DNA of 64,000 bases, from the IMG/VR virus record IMGVR_UViG_3300043570_001980, positions 1-64,000 of that record; one strand, given 5' to 3'. Made by a program: the position numbers and the translations under genes. The stretch is from a virus. The stretch's first letter is position 1; every line of letters starts with the position of its first letter. Below are positions 1,556 through 25,631 of the stretch, piece after piece. The notes beneath the pieces are model-generated. The model saw nothing but the letters and a program-made list of their open reading frames with translations. It did no database searches and was not told the DNA's origin.

Positions 1556-2557
1556 GTGAACAAACTACTAGCAATTTTATTAGCCGCAGTAACTTTATCA
1601 GCACAAGCAGACATCACAGGTGCTGGCGCAACATTTCCATTCCCAATCTATGCCAAGTGGGCCGAAGGATATAAGAAAACCACAGGCACTAGTTTAAACT
1701 ATCAGAGTATTGGTAGTTCGGGCGGCATCAGACAGATCAATGCCAAGACCGTGGACTTTGGAGCAACTGATGCCCCAGTAAGCGGTGAGAACTTGGACAA
1801 GATGGGACAAGTTCAGTTTCCTGCTATCATTGGCGGAACAGTTCCTGTTGTAAACTTAGACGGATTCAAGCCAGGTGAACTACGCATCACTGGTACAGTT
1901 ATGGCAGAAGTGTTCTTGGGCAACATTGCCAAGTGGAATGATCCTAAATTAACAGCATTGAATCCAGGTAAACAGTTACCCGATCAACCTATCACCATTG
2001 TACATCGTGCTGATGGGTCAGGTACAACATTTAACTGGACAGACTATCTTGCCACAGTTAGCCCTGAGTGGTTACAGCGTGTGGGTCGTGGTGCCGCAGT
2101 CAAGTGGCCGGCGGCTACAGCAGTTGGTGGCAAAGGTAATGAAGGCGTTGCTGCCAATGTGAACAGAATCAAAGGTTCAATTGGCTATGTAGAGTATGCG
2201 TATGTTAAGAAAAACAACATGACATTCCTACAACTACAGAACAAATCAGGCCGGTATGTTAGTCCAGATGACCTAACATTTGCCGCAGCCGCAGACGGTG
2301 CTGATTGGTTTAGTGTTCCTGGTATGGGGTTGAGTATTGTGGATCAACGTAATCCCAATGCTTGGCCTGTCAGTTCAGCTAGTTTCATCATCATGTACAA
2401 AGAACCGAAGAGCAAAGCCACCAGTGACGAAGTACTAAAGTTCTTTGATTGGGCATTTAAGAATGGTAAGAAAGATGCCGCTGATTTGGACTATGTGGCA
2501 TTGCCAGACAGTTTAACCAAGCAGATCCGTGAGCGTGTGTGGACACAGATTAAATAA
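1556..2557 (+). CDS. pstS: Periplasmic phosphate-binding protein PstS
   Basis: This is the substrate-binding component of the Pst phosphate ABC transporter. A signal peptide (about residues 1-18, cut after AQA) is followed by the PstS core: GAGATFPFPIY (22-32), SIGSSGG (51-57), DFGATDAP (67-74) and RADGSGTTF (151-159), all phosphate-contact regions in the family. At 333 residues it is full length. The start is GTG 1556 with an AAGGAG site about 8 nt upstream. No other Pst genes are nearby, so the protein would have to feed the host PstCAB. Phage-borne PstS is known from marine T4-type phages. A strong terminator follows. Confidence 0.95.
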   Translation: MNKLLAILLAAVTLSAQADITGAGATFPFPIYAKWAEGYKKTTGTSLNYQSIGSSGGIRQINAKTVDFGATDAPVSGENLDKMGQVQFPAIIGGTVPVVNLDGFKPGELRITGTVMAEVFLGNIAKWNDPKLTALNPGKQLPDQPITIVHRADGSGTTFNWTDYLATVSPEWLQRVGRGAAVKWPAATAVGGKGNEGVAANVNRIKGSIGYVEYAYVKKNNMTFLQLQNKSGRYVSPDDLTFAAAADGADWFSVPGMGLSIVDQRNPNAWPVSSASFIIMYKEPKSKATSDEVLKFFDWAFKNGKKDAADLDYVALPDSLTKQIRERVWTQIK

Positions 2558-2687: not shown

Positions 2688-3911
2688 ATGATGAAAAAAA
2701 TTGCCCTGGGCCTGGCTAGCCTGGTGCTCGTGGTCACTGCCACTGCCACGGCACAAACAACTACTACATCCAGTTCTGCTGGTGGAACAACCACCGGCAC
2801 AAGTACACTTATTAATCAAGGTACCTACGACTCCAAGACTCTAGTTGATACTAACAGTACATCAAACAGTACCAGCACAGTAACATCAAACAGCAATACC
2901 AATAGCAACAGCACTAGCACCAGCGCAGCCACGGTCAACAGCACCAGTGTTAACACCAACAACAATAACAACGTTAGCACCAGTGTCAACACCAACAACA
3001 ACATTAATTCAGGTACCAGCACAATTAATAACAATAATGTCAACTCCGGTACAATGACATACAACAATAACAACAACAATGTTAATAGCGGTACAATGAC
3101 TTACAATAACAACAATGCAAGCACCAGTTCAAGTACTAATGTTAATACCAATAACAATATCAACACTGGTGATATGACTTATAGAAATATTAATACTTCA
3201 ACTAGTACTAGCACAGCAACTAACAATAATAACAACGTCAACACCGGTGATATGACGTATAGAAACATTAATAACAGTACAAGTACTGCCACCAACAACA
3301 ATAATAACGTTAGTACAAGCACTTCTACTAACAATAATGTAAACACTGGTGATATGACCAATCGTAATATCAGTACTTCAACCAGCGCAATCACAGCTAC
3401 CAATAATAATATTAATCAAAACAGTTCTGTGAATACAAATATTCAGCAAGGCGAGGTAACCAATACTAATATTAATAAAACTGAAATTACGCAACGAGTG
3501 ATTCAACCTCCTCCTACTGCGGTAGCACCTGCCATGCTGAGTGGCGGCAACGCTGATTTATGTTCAACAGGTAGTTCAGGCTCTGTACAGACACAGGTAT
3601 TTGGTGTAAGTTCGGGTGGCACAGTTAGAGATATGAATTGCGAACGATTGAAGTTATCTAAAACCTTGTATGACATGGGCATGAAGGTTGCGGCGGTTGC
3701 TACCATGTGCCAAGACCGTAGAGTGTTTGATGCTATGTTGGCCGCAGGCACCCCTTGCCCATACGAAGGCAAGATTGGTGAACAAGCACGAGCACAGTGG
3801 GAAGCAAATCCAGACAAGATTCCAAAGTTGGATGAGGTAAAAATAGATGACACTTATAAGAAAGTTGGCATTGGCGCTATCCTTGGCGTTGTTGTCCGCA
3901 AGTTATTCTAA
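2688..3911 (+). CDS. Secreted Asn/Thr/Ser-rich repeat protein with a Cys-containing C-terminal domain
   Basis: A signal peptide (MMKKIALGLASLVLVVTATATAQ) leads into about 240 residues made almost only of N, T, S, V and G, with recurring units such as NNNVNTGDMTYRN and VNSGTMTYN. A globular tail of about 120 residues follows, with Cys at NADLCSTG, DMNCERLKLS, TMCQDRRVF and GTPCPYEG. The tail resembles one recalled from hypothetical proteins of other T4-type phages of open water; function unknown. GTG 2682 is possible but ATG 2688 sits better behind the AAGG site. The composition is prion-like, so an extended or amyloid-like surface fibre is conceivable (inference). Its 3' end overlaps the next gene by 65 nt. 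Confidence 0.8.
   Translation: MMKKIALGLASLVLVVTATATAQTTTTSSSAGGTTTGTSTLINQGTYDSKTLVDTNSTSNSTSTVTSNSNTNSNSTSTSAATVNSTSVNTNNNNNVSTSVNTNNNINSGTSTINNNNVNSGTMTYNNNNNNVNSGTMTYNNNNASTSSSTNVNTNNNINTGDMTYRNINTSTSTSTATNNNNNVNTGDMTYRNINNSTSTATNNNNNVSTSTSTNNNVNTGDMTNRNISTSTSAITATNNNINQNSSVNTNIQQGEVTNTNINKTEITQRVIQPPPTAVAPAMLSGGNADLCSTGSSGSVQTQVFGVSSGGTVRDMNCERLKLSKTLYDMGMKVAAVATMCQDRRVFDAMLAAGTPCPYEGKIGEQARAQWEANPDKIPKLDEVKIDDTYKKVGIGAILGVVVRKLF
2870..3480 (+). repeat. Degenerate coding repeat region (Asn/Thr/Ser units)
   Basis: Short imperfect units rich in AAC, AAT, AGT and ACT codons repeat through the middle of the preceding gene. Three copies of an NTGDMT-type unit start near 3165, 3240 and 3343, and two SGTMTYNN units near 3044 and 3089. 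Confidence 0.8.
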
Positions 3912-6213
3912 CAGTCAAGATATATCCACTACAGGTAATTTAATAAATTACAGTACTTCACCTACGGGTACAACCAGTACCTGGAACAATGGCGTGTATG
4001 TTAATCAACTGTGCTTTTATGCCGGTGAACCAGGCAACTGTGGACCAAACCCTAGTATTAGACCAGGCGGCTACATCAATTTCAGTTATGGCACCGCAGA
4101 CCTGAATCAGGTCATTAACATAAACACAGCATTATCTGCGGGCGGAGCAGGTGTGCAACTTTCTGGATTTAACTACAGCTTCATGGCCAAGAACGGCAAT
4201 GGATGGGACGATGCTAGACAGGATTATCTTGCCGCTTATGTCAAGTTGTATGGTTCAGGTGGCAACTTAATAGCAAACTATGATTACTCTGCGGCAACTA
4301 ATAACAAATACAACTGGACTACTTTTAATTTCAACGAGACATTTGCTACATCTTACATTGCATCAACACTAAGCACAGCACAAGTAGGTATGGTGGGCAG
4401 AGATAATAATTTCTGGGCAGGCAATTATGGTCCAGAAGTTATGAATGTTGATTTTCGTTTAAAATACAAAGTAGATCCGTGTGCTACCAATCCTGCTTAT
4501 AGTTCAACATGTGCTGGCTTCAGCAGTATTCTTAATACCAATAATTTGTTAGATTCAACTCAAGGTGGATCAAGTCTAAATCAAGCGTTTGCAATCAACA
4601 CCGCATTGCAGAATGCCGGAGTTGGGGCAACCATACATGGATTCAACTACGGGTTCAACTGGAGAGTTGGGCAAGGTTTTTCAGGATGTACTGCTTGGAA
4701 TCAAGATGGGTCGTGTAGTTGGACCATGAACATACCTGCGTATGCTAATGCCACAGTCTCACTTACAAACAGTGGCAACCAGTCTATACAATCAAAGACT
4801 TACAGTTTTACGGGTGATGGCACCAGTGGATCGGTTAGTGACAAATATTTGTTGCCAGTTAGTATGAATCAATCCATGTTGGGTACAGGTAGAATTGTAG
4901 GGTCAGCATCAGGCACCGGTTCTTCTGTGGAAGGTGCATGGGCAACAATGATTTATACTGCTGATCCTTGTGTTGCTAATCCCTTATATAGTACTAATTG
5001 TAAGGGCTATGCTTATGCTATGGCTAAACAATCCATGGCTAATAATACAACTTCAAACAATATGATGGGCACTGATGGTGCACCATTCATAGACCCAACA
5101 ACTGGTACACAGTCTGACCCCACGCGACCTCCACCTCCACCGGGCACTGAAGGAGCTGCCGGATCCCCGCCGGGAAGTCAGCCACCACCAGGTTCAGAGC
5201 CCCCACCTGGAAGTCAGCCTCCTCCGGGTAGTCCACCACCGCCAGGAACAACACAAACTGCTTCTAATAATCCAGCAGGTCCACCGCCTGCAAATCAACC
5301 TCCTCCACCAAGTGGCGGCAGTAGTCAACCCCGAGCAGGTGAAGTTAAAACAGCCGGTGATAACAAAAGCACATCATCTTCGCCGGTATCATTAAGTTCC
5401 GTAATGAGTATGATTAGTAGTAATCAAGCTAGAATAGGCAATGAAGCAAAAGCAGTTGTTCAGGCCGCCGAAGCACAGGCTACTCAATCTGCTACATCTG
5501 CACAGCAACAAGCAGAAGCAGTAGCTGGTTCCGCAGTTGCACAAAGTATGGCTAGTAGTTCAACAGTAACAGGTGCATCATCGGGTACCACAACTAGAAC
5601 AGCAACTCAAACTCAAGTCAGTGCATTTTCATTACCAACAGGTCAAGCTTCTACTGCCACAAGTATAGAAGCAATACGCCCGCCAACGCAAGCAACCACA
5701 ACTGAAACTGTTCAAAGTACTGGTACAGGATTATCGGCACTTACTACAACATATCAATTCAGCTCTATTTCAGCACCTTCTACTAGTGCATTTTCAGCAG
5801 TTGAATCATCATTAACCAACTTTGGATTTCAGTTACCAACTGGACGATCAAATATACAAATAGAACCCGAATCAACTCCCCAAACTGAAGGTATCAAAGT
5901 AGGCGGTCGTTCACCGTTAAATGATGCTATAGAACAGCGCCCGATGTTGCCAAATGCAATTACACAAGAACAAAAGACAGACGCAGTAAACAAAAATGTT
6001 CAACCAAATGAACTAGCAGGCAGGGTAGATATAACTAGAATGGCGACACAACCTGCTGGTTATCAAGCATACTCAATGATGATGCCTGATGTGGCATTCT
6101 ATGCACCACGAGAGATTTACCGGAATCAAGTTAATGTAGACAATGCCAGAGTCTTACGTCAATTGTCTAGTGATCGATTACACCAAGACTTGGTGAACCT
6201 ACAATACAAATAA
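3847..6213 (+). CDS. Large secreted protein with duplicated DPC/NPxYS domains and a polyproline hinge
   Basis: At 788 residues this is the largest protein of the envelope block. A signal peptide (about residues 1-23, ending SNSQ) precedes two related beta-rich domains of about 190 residues, each closed by the same motif: DPCATNPAYSSTCAGF and DPCVANPLYSTNCKGY. A Pro/Gly hinge with PPPG repeats (about residues 425-490) follows, then an Ala/Thr/Ser-rich stretch, then a conserved-looking C-terminus with MMMPDVAFYAPREIYRN. CxxNPxYSxxC repeats are recalled from hypothetical T4-type phage proteins; no function is established. It starts inside the 3' end of the previous gene, which suggests translational coupling. 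A surface or virion-associated role is inferred. Confidence 0.8.
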   Translation: MTLIRKLALALSLALLSASYSNSQDISTTGNLINYSTSPTGTTSTWNNGVYVNQLCFYAGEPGNCGPNPSIRPGGYINFSYGTADLNQVININTALSAGGAGVQLSGFNYSFMAKNGNGWDDARQDYLAAYVKLYGSGGNLIANYDYSAATNNKYNWTTFNFNETFATSYIASTLSTAQVGMVGRDNNFWAGNYGPEVMNVDFRLKYKVDPCATNPAYSSTCAGFSSILNTNNLLDSTQGGSSLNQAFAINTALQNAGVGATIHGFNYGFNWRVGQGFSGCTAWNQDGSCSWTMNIPAYANATVSLTNSGNQSIQSKTYSFTGDGTSGSVSDKYLLPVSMNQSMLGTGRIVGSASGTGSSVEGAWATMIYTADPCVANPLYSTNCKGYAYAMAKQSMANNTTSNNMMGTDGAPFIDPTTGTQSDPTRPPPPPGTEGAAGSPPGSQPPPGSEPPPGSQPPPGSPPPPGTTQTASNNPAGPPPANQPPPPSGGSSQPRAGEVKTAGDNKSTSSSPVSLSSVMSMISSNQARIGNEAKAVVQAAEAQATQSATSAQQQAEAVAGSAVAQSMASSSTVTGASSGTTTRTATQTQVSAFSLPTGQASTATSIEAIRPPTQATTTETVQSTGTGLSALTTTYQFSSISAPSTSAFSAVESSLTNFGFQLPTGRSNIQIEPESTPQTEGIKVGGRSPLNDAIEQRPMLPNAITQEQKTDAVNKNVQPNELAGRVDITRMATQPAGYQAYSMMMPDVAFYAPREIYRNQVNVDNARVLRQLSSDRLHQDLVNLQYK

Positions 6214-6223
6214 GGAAACAAAA

Positions 6224-6844
6224 ATGGCAGAAGAAATAAAAAACGTAAACGCAAAGGTTGATGAACTAGAAGCAGCCGCCAAAAAGTACGCATCAAAAGA
6301 TACTGTTATAAGCATTGGCGGCTACGAGTTTACCCCAGCCAAACTAATGGTTGCAGCCACAATCGTATCATCTATACTAGGTGGACTGTATGGATCATTT
6401 GAAGTGTACAAAGACTACGTGGGCATGAAGAAAAAGATTGCTGAATATGCCGCTCCAGACCTAAGTGGATTTGACAAGCGACTGGCAGTGATCGAAGAAA
6501 ACTCTAGCAAAACCAGCGACTACACACGTGATATCAAAACTGATTTGAAGAATGATATTCGCCGTAATGAAACTGTGACCGAGCAAGTAGAACGTAGCGT
6601 TAAGAATGCACAGCGTGAAACTGAGTCAGAAATGCGTGACATGCGCAAGGCTGTGCGTGAAGACCTGGAACGTGCTAGGACCGAAGCGGCTGCAATTCGC
6701 CGAGATATGGAAAACACACGCAAAGAAATCAACAGTGAATTTACTGCGGCCCGTAGAGAAATCAATCGCGAAGTAGAAACACTAAAGAGAGAAGTCGATA
6801 GTAAAATACAAAAAGCCATGGATAATCCATTGGCCAACAAGTAA
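6224..6844 (+). CDS. Membrane-anchored coiled-coil protein
   Basis: In this 206-residue protein a single hydrophobic segment (LMVAATIVSSILGGLYGSF, about residues 41-59) is followed by a long charged heptad-like region rich in E, R, K and A that runs to the C-terminus, giving a membrane anchor plus a long coiled coil. There is no signal cleavage site. It lies 10 nt after the Pro-rich secreted protein, with AAGGAAAC as ribosome site, so it is probably in the same operon. Not recognised as a named family. Confidence 0.75.
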   Translation: MAEEIKNVNAKVDELEAAAKKYASKDTVISIGGYEFTPAKLMVAATIVSSILGGLYGSFEVYKDYVGMKKKIAEYAAPDLSGFDKRLAVIEENSSKTSDYTRDIKTDLKNDIRRNETVTEQVERSVKNAQRETESEMRDMRKAVREDLERARTEAAAIRRDMENTRKEINSEFTAARREINREVETLKREVDSKIQKAMDNPLANK

Positions 6845-6845
6845 C

Positions 6846-7010
6846 ATGTTCAACGCCATAGGCTCAATAATGTTAGCAGGTATGCTAGCCCAAGAGCCAA
6901 GGTGTGTGAAATGGACATGGACGGGCGATGTCTACAATCGCAGAGTGGTATGCCTAGAATGGTCTAAACCCCCGCCGCAACCTAAAGATAAGGATCCTAA
7001 GAAAACATGA
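6846..7010 (+). CDS. Small exported protein, 54 residues
   Basis: ATG 6846 starts 1 nt after the previous stop and the TGA overlaps the next ATG as ATGA, so the frame fits tightly in the operon. A short hydrophobic N-terminus (SIMLAGMLA) is followed by two Cys (CVKWTWTGDVYNRRVVC) and a Pro/Lys tail. It is too short for function assignment. The tight overlaps on both sides are the main evidence that it is real. Confidence 0.65.
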   Translation: MFNAIGSIMLAGMLAQEPRCVKWTWTGDVYNRRVVCLEWSKPPPQPKDKDPKKT

Positions 7011-7489
7011 TTGATCCTATCACAATTGGCATTGCGTTCACGGCCGCTCAACAATCGGTAAATTATATCAAAAAGGCCATTGCCCTAGGCAAAGATGTCA
7101 ACAGTCTATACGGTCAGTTTGCTAAGTTTTTTGAAAACAGCGACACAATTCACGCTGCCAGCATAGAGGCACAAACCAGTAAAAAAATTCTCACTGACGG
7201 ACAGATTAGAGCAATGTCTGTACAGATTGCCATGCAGAGTAAAGCCCTGCGTGATGCTGAAAAAGAACTAAAAGAAATGTTGATATGGTCTGGCAACAAA
7301 GATGTCTGGGATGAAATGATGGCCGAGCGTGTGCGTATGTACAAGGAACGTGCCAAACTACAGGCAGACATAAAAAATGCCAGGATACAAGCACAGTCCG
7401 ACATGATAGATAGACTGCTTATAGGTACAAGTTTCATGGCAATAGCGATCCCTGTTGTGCTGTTCACTTTTGCTATGATCACCAGATAA
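7007..7489 (+). CDS. Tail-anchored helical protein
   Basis: This 160-residue, mostly helical protein has a charged central region (about residues 60-130) and one C-terminal membrane segment (LLIGTSFMAIAIPVVLFTFAMI, about 136-157). It overlaps the preceding small gene as ATGA. It belongs to the group of coiled-coil membrane proteins between 6.2 and 8.05 kb. No named family was recognised. Confidence 0.75.
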   Translation: MIDPITIGIAFTAAQQSVNYIKKAIALGKDVNSLYGQFAKFFENSDTIHAASIEAQTSKKILTDGQIRAMSVQIAMQSKALRDAEKELKEMLIWSGNKDVWDEMMAERVRMYKERAKLQADIKNARIQAQSDMIDRLLIGTSFMAIAIPVVLFTFAMITR

Positions 7490-7514: not shown

Positions 7515-8051
7515 ATGGCAGAAGTAAAAACATTGTCACGTTCTGAACGTGAAGCACAAATTAAAGATAGAGCAGGATGGGTCATTACTGTCATTGCACT
7601 ATTATTAGCAATTACAACCTATATGTCTAGCGGATTTAGTAGCAAGATATTAAGTAACACCATCAAAGCAAATGATACTTGGAACTTTTATCAAGCCAAG
7701 AGTATCAAACAAAGTATTGCCGAAGGACAGTTAGAAACCACCACAGATCCAAAACGCAAAGAACAACTACAAGCCAAGATTGATCGTTACGAGTCTGACC
7801 CAGCCAAAGGTGAGGGCAAGAAAGAGTTGATGGCCAAAGCATTACAGATTGAAGCCGAACGTGATGAAGCCAAGAAACATACCCCATGGTTGACGTTTGC
7901 CGCAATGGCATTCCAGTTGGCCATTGTACTACTGTCTGCTAGTATTTTAGCTGTGGACAAACGTATGTTTTGGGGCAGTATCGGCGTAAGTATTTTTGGA
8001 ACATTGCTGTTAACCCAAGGCATTTGGCTTGTTATACCACTTGTGATATAA
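7515..8051 (+). CDS. Three-helix membrane protein with a soluble helical loop
   Basis: This 178-residue protein has a membrane segment at about residues 18-38 (WVITVIALLLAITTYMSSGF), a charged helical loop (about 45-118), then two more membrane segments (about 120-140 and 148-176). The loop has heptad-like spacing of L, K and E. Last gene of the 6.2-8.05 kb membrane group. No named family recognised; a holin or envelope-remodelling role would be guesswork. Confidence 0.7.
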   Translation: MAEVKTLSRSEREAQIKDRAGWVITVIALLLAITTYMSSGFSSKILSNTIKANDTWNFYQAKSIKQSIAEGQLETTTDPKRKEQLQAKIDRYESDPAKGEGKKELMAKALQIEAERDEAKKHTPWLTFAAMAFQLAIVLLSASILAVDKRMFWGSIGVSIFGTLLLTQGIWLVIPLVI

Positions 8052-12113: not shown

Positions 12114-12689
12114 ATGACACAAATTAAAGATGACGAAGATTACATTAGCCCTGGACAAAGCTTGCTTGAAGCTGGTATGTATGCCTTTATGGGTCCAGTA
12201 GATACCGAAAGTGTTAAGCCGGTAATTGAATGGATTCTTCATGCCAACTATGTTGTTAAGAAAAAGAAAAAAGAACTACTGCTAATGATTTGCAGTGAAG
12301 GTGGAGATTTGGAGCCTGCCTTTGCATTGATCGACGTAATGCAGAGTAGCAACATACCAATCAAGACTGTTGGGCTAGGTCAGATTTCTTCTTCGGGTTT
12401 GTTGATATTTCTAGCAGGAACTCCAGGCCGAAGATTGTTAACCCCAAATACCAGTATTTTGAGTCATCAATTTAGTTGGGGATCAGATGGCAAAGCACAC
12501 GAACTGTTTGCCACAGTCAAAGAGTTTGAACTCTGCCAGAAACGAATGCTTAATCACTATAAACAGGCCACTGGACTTGATGAAGATAAACTAAAACAAT
12601 GCTTGTTGCCACCACATGATGTCTGGCTCAGTGCCGAGGAAGCACTGGACTTTGGAATCTGCAATTCCATTAGCCGACTTGCTCGTTAA
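12114..12689 (+). CDS. clpP: ClpP-like serine protease
   Basis: A 191-residue protein of the ClpP/SppA crotonase fold. GLGQISSSGLLIFLAGTPGRR aligns with the ClpP nucleophile region (Ser93), SHQF supplies His118, and PHDVWLSAEEALDFG supplies Asp169, completing the triad. The ICSEGGD strand (60-65) matches the ClpP oxyanion-side glycine motif. Full ClpP length without propeptide. No ATPase partner is nearby. In phages ClpP-like proteases are often prohead or capsid-maturation enzymes, but this one sits by lipoprotein genes. It is transcribed from its own palindrome-embedded promoter. Confidence 0.85.
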   Translation: MTQIKDDEDYISPGQSLLEAGMYAFMGPVDTESVKPVIEWILHANYVVKKKKKELLLMICSEGGDLEPAFALIDVMQSSNIPIKTVGLGQISSSGLLIFLAGTPGRRLLTPNTSILSHQFSWGSDGKAHELFATVKEFELCQKRMLNHYKQATGLDEDKLKQCLLPPHDVWLSAEEALDFGICNSISRLAR

Positions 12690-25070: not shown

Positions 25071-25631
25071 ATGACAAAATATATCAAAATGACAGTTAAT
25101 TTGTCAATATTTTTGATAATTGCCTTGTTCGGCATAGCAGTAGTTAATACAGTGGTCCAAAACAAACTTGATAGCTTGGCCACTGTTGATTTTGAAAATG
25201 TAGGTTCGATCGGAGCCTACAAAACAGCTCTCAAAGAGAAAGAGCGCAAGTTACAATGTATGACTCAAAATGTCTACTGGGAAGCCGCAGGCGAACCAGC
25301 AGAAGGAAAGCTGGCAGTAGCACAGGTGGTCATGAATCGTGTGGAAAGCGGAAAATTTCCCAATGATCCGTGTCAAGTGGTTCACCAAAAGAACGTGATT
25401 TATGAACGGGTGCTTTGCCAATTCTCATGGTACTGTGAACAGAATTTCAAAACCAAACCTGTTCACAAAAAGCTATGGGACGAGAGTGCTGAAGCCGCCA
25501 AGATGGTCATGGTTGATGGATTCCGACTGCCTGAACTTAAAGATGCACTTTACTATCATGCAGACTATGTGAATCCGCAGTGGAACAAGAAACAAGTGGC
25601 CAAGATTGGCCGACATATTTTTTACAAGTGA
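25071..25631 (+). CDS. SleB/CwlJ-type cell wall hydrolase (membrane-anchored)
   Basis: 186 residues. An N-terminal signal anchor (about 8-28) precedes the Hydrolase_2 domain: NVYWEAAGEPAEGKLAVAQVVMNRV with catalytic Glu71, then CQFSWYCE and ALYYHADYVNPQW. The family cleaves peptidoglycan; here it would be an endolysin or wall-remodelling enzyme exported with its own anchor (SAR-like release is inference). AAAGGAG site. Followed 8 nt later by a three-span membrane protein that may be the holin. Confidence 0.85.
   Translation: MTKYIKMTVNLSIFLIIALFGIAVVNTVVQNKLDSLATVDFENVGSIGAYKTALKEKERKLQCMTQNVYWEAAGEPAEGKLAVAQVVMNRVESGKFPNDPCQVVHQKNVIYERVLCQFSWYCEQNFKTKPVHKKLWDESAEAAKMVMVDGFRLPELKDALYYHADYVNPQWNKKQVAKIGRHIFYK

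Follow-up and report, generated by a model that had tools for sequence, protein, structure and literature searches.

A giant freshwater-type phage encodes an exported Asn-rich, stalk-like protein and a lectin-like partner with homologs in many uncultured phages

INTRODUCTION

The only phage-encoded fiber systems that we found described for related phages are the curli (type VIII secretion) operons of pelagiphages of the HTVC008M/Melnitz type (PMC7029224, PMC9004378, PMC9599517). Prion-like domains of phage proteins have been surveyed by composition (Tetz and Tetz 2017, PMC5694896). Two further points of comparison are PHROG 20531, a family for which no function or module has been described, and the FBA domains of Fbs1/FBXO2 and FBXO6. 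Fbs1 binds chitobiose through an aromatic-Trp loop.

Here, we analyzed a stretch of 64 kb (the window), which is the first part of a 341,990-base virus record (G000). We found that this giant freshwater-type phage carries two exported proteins, A and B, encoded by adjacent genes, and that the pair is widespread. Together with a third gene, C, these genes resemble pelagiphage curli in that they are phage-encoded, export-related envelope genes of related marine phages with an unconfirmed function. However, CsgG is present in HTVC008M and absent from the A-bearing phages examined. A shares its N/Q-rich composition with the prion-like domains of the survey, which was based on composition, but the residue order of A gives a strict two-residue register, and A is exported. 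B shares a jelly-roll fold and a GxDxxxWAGxYGPxxxN motif with the FBA proteins, but it is exported and has no F-box, and the copy in the window stays under the Pfam threshold.

RESULTS

A is an exported, Asn-rich protein

Gene A is single copy in G000 and is followed on the same strand by genes B, C, D, and E (Table 1). Other possible starts in its frame are at 2682 (GTG) and 2688 (ATG). A preliminary description of this DNA had proposed a signal peptide, then Asn/Thr/Ser-rich repeats, and then a Cys-containing domain, and we found all three in that order: the N terminus, MKKIALGLASLVLVVTATATAQ, is followed by about 250 residues that include 73 N, 59 T, and 40 S, and then by a domain whose four Cys residues are invariant (alignments A1 and A2). 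Simple signal-peptide criteria selected 107 of 108 A homologs and 73 of 75 B homologs; the figure for other neighboring proteins was 48 of 258. We found homologs of A at about 140 viral loci and in several isolates (Pelagibacter and Roseobacter phages). PHROG 20531, of unknown function, was the only family that matched A (E = 5.6e-6), and there was no match to Pfam at E values up to 1, curlin included.

The same description had called A prion-like or amyloid, and in composition this stands. Window A contains 34 N/Q in 80 residues, no other open reading frame in the window has more than 21, and 101 of 116 distinct A homologs pass a Q/N-rich threshold of at least 30 N/Q in 80 residues. In the repeat DNA, AAC and AAT have equal shares, with 36 uses each; of 32 pairs of neighboring Asn codons, 15 consist of the same codon twice, and the 108 in-frame hexamers include 68 different ones. 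Thus, with this codon variety, the coding DNA is no simple microsatellite. Beyond the Cys domain, a hydrophobic C-terminal stretch is found in 82 of the 116 distinct homologs.

Table 1. Features of the A-B-C locus and the genes that follow it, in positions of the window
Feature	Positions	Strand	Description
Gene A	2691..3911	+	Exported Asn/Thr/Ser stalk protein (putative) with C-terminal Cys cap domain; 406 aa counted from second ATG
Signal peptide of A	2691..2756	+	Residues ~1-22; MKKIALGLASLVLVVTATATAQ
Stalk of A	2844..3503	+	220 residues, from conserved VDTN motif (residue 52) to QPPPTA motif (residue 272); six VNSGTMTY-type repeats
Cys cap domain of A	3501..3890	+	Cys at residues 291, 317, 340, 356
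Short hydrophobic C terminus of A	3861..3905	+	VGIGAILGVVVRKL; longer in some homologs, missing from others
Gene B	3847..6213	+	788 aa; exported lectin-like partner; 65-nt overlap with A
B jelly-roll domain 1	3916..4476	+	aa 24-210; FBA/CBM-like; GRDNNFWAGNYGP at aa 184-196; AF2 pLDDT mostly >90
B jelly-roll domain 2	4519..5046	+	aa 225-400; from AF2, conservation profile, and motif scan; no WAGxYGP motif; missing from many homologs
B Pro-rich hinge	5053..5385	+	aa 403-513; predicted disordered, pLDDT ~40-50
B predicted long helix	5392..5559	+	aa 516-571; AF2, pLDDT ~70
B conserved C-terminal segment	5980..6210	+	FYxPKEIYxNQxxVDNxRxLRxLxSDRLHQxMVxxQY; near-invariant residues in alignment A3
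Gene C	6224..6844	+	206 aa; a single predicted TM helix at aa 41-59 precedes a coiled coil; C-terminal end DNPLANK
Gene D	7007..7489	+	160 aa; C-terminal TM helix (aa 133-160)
Gene E	7515..8051	+	DUF4337 membrane protein; PF14235, E = 1.6e-33

The Asn-rich region of A keeps a two-residue register

In the window stalk, T, V, and I favor one parity of positions by 62 to 9, and S favors the other by 31 to 5. The motif [VI]N[ST]GxxT[YN] occurs 4.26 times per protein, compared with 0.02 times in shuffles of the same residues. Across 61 nonredundant homolog regions, the distances between successive motifs gave 242 even values and no odd one, and the register was stronger than in 300 shuffles in 61/61 regions. 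The distance from VDTN to PPPTA ranges from 124 to 490 residues across homologs, and it was even in 54 of 54. Alternation over such lengths is as required by a β strand with two distinct faces, and the fact that insertions and deletions preserve the register suggests that it matters. Unequal crossing-over in dipeptide-coding repeat DNA may be part of the cause of the even-length changes.

The strict even-length register and the conserved VNSGTMTY repeats led us to read this region as a fiber or stalk. As judged from residue order, it suits an ordered, β fiber-like stalk and not a disordered prion domain, so the disorder expected of a prion-like protein did not hold up as its composition did. 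The even-length rule is a sharp and testable structural constraint. In HTVC115P, CRP-810, and like isolates, A has no long Asn-rich stalk; the module can therefore do without it.

The Cys cap is shared with alphaproteobacterial proteins

The AF2 model of the cap, a hairpin and three helices, is weak (pLDDT 71, pTM 0.50). Searches of the PDB with the cap by sequence and by fold, the latter with this weak model as the query, gave nothing useful. We found the cap domain also in metagenome-assembled Hyphomonadaceae and other Alphaproteobacteria, on contigs where its neighbors are ordinary metabolic genes. Like A, these proteins (e.g., L174, L181, and L188) have an export signal, a periodic low-complexity stalk, and the same Cys cap; unlike A, they are chromosomal, lie among housekeeping genes, and are without B or C. 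In the stalk that follows the export signal, either Asn recurs at lag 2 or collagen-like NGx repeats recur at lag 3, with a lag-3 autocorrelation of 0.96 to 0.99. Thus, one cap carries stalks of two periodicities. Some of the cellular proteins end in OmpA (PF00691, E = 1.5e-16 and 2.5e-25), a peptidoglycan-binding family, and these fusions point to the periplasm and wall. No collagen-like or OmpA-fused form was seen in the phages examined, and neither A nor B of the window contains an OmpA domain.

B has a predicted FBA-like fold

The gene after A had been described as overlapping its end and encoding a 788-residue secreted protein with duplicated CxxNPxYS domains and a polyproline hinge, and our analysis agrees on each of these points. 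The same overlap is present in 53 of 97 loci, and B homologs were found in 63 viral loci. The duplicated motif has the longer form DPCxxNPxYSxxC, at aa 210 and aa 373, and the Pro-rich core of the hinge lies at approximately aa 426 to 490, with a tandem repeat at 5165 to 5248.

By structure comparison, domain 1 of B matched the sugar-binding domain of Fbs1 (2e31) with a Z score of 13.2 and an rmsd of 3.1 over 157 residues; CBM16 and phage tailspike domains scored below Fbs1, at a Z of about 10. The domain 1 profile also matched FBXO6 (E = 2e-4), FBXO2 (E = 0.006), and FBXO44 (E = 0.02) among PDB sequences, and the alignment set GRDNNFWAGNYGPEVMN-type sequences against GKDTQFWAGWYGPRVTN of the FBXO matches. 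Pfam FBA was matched by 6 of 43 members of the B family (best E = 6.9e-5), with no match above threshold in G000, window B included. The WAGxYGP-type motif is found in 57 of 75 B homologs, and in window B it occurs in domain 1 only. The aromatic-Trp loop is conserved in B homologs. Because this loop binds chitobiose in Fbs1, B may plausibly bind host glycans that contain GlcNAc, for example, peptidoglycan or LPS. A phage-exported protein with an FBA-type glycan-binding fold would broaden a family of lectins that is known mainly from the F-box proteins of animals. A tblastn search with B against annotated phages gave no match, although in isolates A is followed by diverged B-like genes.

A, B, and C form a conserved module

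We examined 125 loci in which A is followed by 6 kb or more of sequence. The C terminus of B was found downstream of A in 96 of these loci and C in 102, which confirmed the conservation of the neighborhood in related phages that the preliminary description had named as a check. The A-B-C module is conserved in jumbo phages, pelagiphages, and roseophages. HTVC115P, CRP-207, CRP-810, and ctXG6705 likewise have a C homolog downstream of A, and 90 of 91 C homologs end in NPL.

The surrounding genes are less constant. Gene D is present in 63 of 144 neighborhoods, matches PHROG 32327 (E = 1e-5), and has weak homologs in Limnohabitans and Roseobacter phages. Gene E was found in 45 neighborhoods and is a frequent, but not constant, companion of A. 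Upstream of A in the window are a metallophosphoesterase-like gene, a family 2 glycosyltransferase (PF00535, E = 1.6e-20), and a phage PstS-type protein.

Our literature searches, on jumbo-phage proteins that are Asn-rich or exported and on FBA domains in bacteria, turned up no description of the A-B-C module in the libraries searched. As far as we found, then, its homologs are common in uncultured phages and apparently undescribed so far. The pair had been called an unusual object for an infected cell; it is not unusual in the sense of being rare, but it does appear to be new to the literature.

DISCUSSION

The conserved signal peptides, the A-B-C gene order, and the two-residue register support export, fibrous character, and a functional pair, as had been proposed for A and B; the extracellular coat that went with this proposal is unsupported. 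By computation, we found the signals for export, the gene order, the register, a lectin fold, and homologs in cells. We suggest, with moderate confidence, that A and B are exported to the envelope of the infected cell, where they are subunits of a phage-made stalk-plus-lectin complex, with C, and often D, as its inner-membrane parts. A would be an elongated stalk, that is, a length-variable, β-patterned fiber held between the conserved N-terminal motif and a disulfide-bonded cap, with alternate residues on opposite faces (N/S on one and T/V/I on the other). It would probably assemble as an oligomeric fiber, perhaps a trimer. B would be the lectin, gripping a host-envelope glycan with an FBA/galactose-binding-type jelly-roll on a flexible Pro-rich hinge, and its conserved C-terminal segment may be the docking part. 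C would span the inner membrane, with its coiled coil extending into the periplasm. We infer that the complex links the inner membrane, wall, and outer layer of the infected cell and that its role may be envelope remodeling around lysis or surface shielding. That jumbo phages and pelagiphages export large fibrous and lectin proteins suggests a rebuilding of the host envelope during infection, a phage activity that has hardly been studied outside the lysis genes.

A broader interpretation is possible, and we offer it only tentatively. A may represent a new class of fibrous protein with interchangeable stalks on one cap: in phages, an even-length stalk of 124 to 490 residues in the two-residue β register, and in bacteria, an Asn-periodic or collagen-like one. 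In jumbo phages, this protein, an FBA-type lectin that is also exported, and a coiled coil in the membrane would together make up a previously unrecognized envelope-spanning machine of the infected cell.

The main alternatives to the envelope complex are an amyloid fiber, lysis support, and surface shielding. We consider it unlikely that A is a functional, curli-like or prion-like amyloid that forms extracellular cross-β fibers, gluing cells together or shielding their surface, with B as an adhesive partner. The N/Q-rich composition of most A homologs would suit such a protein, and the alternating β pattern with Asn ladders fits cross-β structure. In addition, related pelagiphages encode curli with CsgG and CsgF, for which sibling capture has been proposed (PMC7029224, PMC9599517). 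However, we found no CsgG (PF03783) in G000, which is possibly a fragment, or in six phages with A (Mosig, HTVC115P, HTVC202P, ctXG6705, CRP-207, and CRP-810), whereas HTVC008M, the positive control for this search, was matched. In HTVC008M, in turn, A had no match, either by tblastn or by a profile search that covered 47 kb. A matches neither curlin nor anything else in Pfam, no known outer-membrane exporter is present in the module, and several A homologs are without repeats. The strict register also contradicts prion-like disorder. We therefore rejected curli/type VIII secretion, given that CsgG is absent from G000 and the six phages and that A has no curlin repeats.

A second alternative is that the module is an accessory to lysis or release, in which C would be an inner-membrane spanin-like protein or regulator and A and B would disrupt the wall and outer membrane late in infection. 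Gene context gives this idea some appeal. In 16 loci, A has a GH19 endolysin gene at a distance of no more than about 4 kb, on either side and on either strand, and ten of the 16 also have Rz/Rz1-like genes; in several lineages, a tail fiber-like gene, an Rz-like gene, an Rz1-like gene, and a GH19 endolysin gene precede A, B, and C in this order. In ctXG6705, an endolysin (phrog_7, E = 1e-46) is encoded downstream of the module, and the predicted topology of C, an inner-membrane TM helix and a coiled coil, is spanin-like. However, the best of these lineages already have Rz/Rz1-like spanins next to A, and most jumbo-phage loci have no lysis genes beside A. A two-component spanin pairs a lipobox-bearing outer-membrane lipoprotein with an inner-membrane coiled-coil partner, and the lipobox Cys is missing from the signal peptides of both A and B, so A or B with C does not make such a pair. 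We think this second alternative improbable. The "lysozyme" labels in CRP-207 and CRP-810 were rejected as a link to lysis, since the labeled genes are C homologs without endolysin matches.

It is also rather improbable that the module masks the surface or excludes superinfecting phages, with B binding LPS or capsule sugars and A holding B at the surface so that other phages are blocked. B is lectin-like, and the glycosyltransferase gene lies close upstream of A in the window, but this gene is not conserved as a neighbor elsewhere, and we identified neither a link to a receptor nor a route across the outer membrane. Very improbable is the view that A and B are tail-fiber-like virion parts whose N-terminal hydrophobic stretch is no secretion signal: the fold of B does resemble tailspike carbohydrate-binding domains, and in some phages the A-B-C genes come after tail-fiber-like genes, but export signals are near-universal, the Cys residues of A are invariant, the membrane proteins C and D belong to the module, cellular homologs end in OmpA, and the A-B pair of Mosig lies beside primase and ribonucleotide reductase genes.

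In Roseobacter phages CRP-207 and CRP-810, the homologues of C, which encodes one predicted transmembrane helix followed by a coiled coil, are annotated as lysozymes. Both share the architecture of C, with an N-terminal transmembrane segment, a coiled coil, and an NPL end, and neither gave an endolysin match. The lysozyme label is probably a misannotation. By eye, we noted a possible endolysin of the window's own phage in the SleB-like gene.

Features in the window and in roseophage loci
Feature	Position	Context	Evidence
Phage PstS-type phosphate-binding protein	window 1556-2557	directly upstream of A	phrog_5385, E 3e-65
Putative ClpP-like protease gene	window 12114-12689		by eye
Putative SleB-like cell-wall hydrolase gene	window 25071-25631		by eye
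Lysozyme-annotated gene	L145:3292-3873	CRP-207	C homologue
Lysozyme-annotated gene	L146:7213-7635	CRP-810	C homologue
Small lipoprotein with A cap-domain fragment	L146:5609-5869	just upstream of A, CRP-810	46 bits

Downstream of A, the exported stalk protein gene, three roseophage-like contigs (L134, L135, and L138) carry genes for small exported proteins resembling spore-coat-U/pilin-type and chaperone-like domains; two of these had no match in a PHROG search. In Alphaproteobacteria, the cap-domain genes of L178, L185, and L188 form tandem pairs with NGx collagen-like repeats, the second gene carrying an OmpA fusion. Relatives of the window's jumbo phage (L095 and L065) have genes at positions +3 to +8 from A that, by eye and from sequence alone, resemble those for a dicarboxylate/glutamate transporter, an amino-acid substrate-binding protein, and an aspartate racemase.
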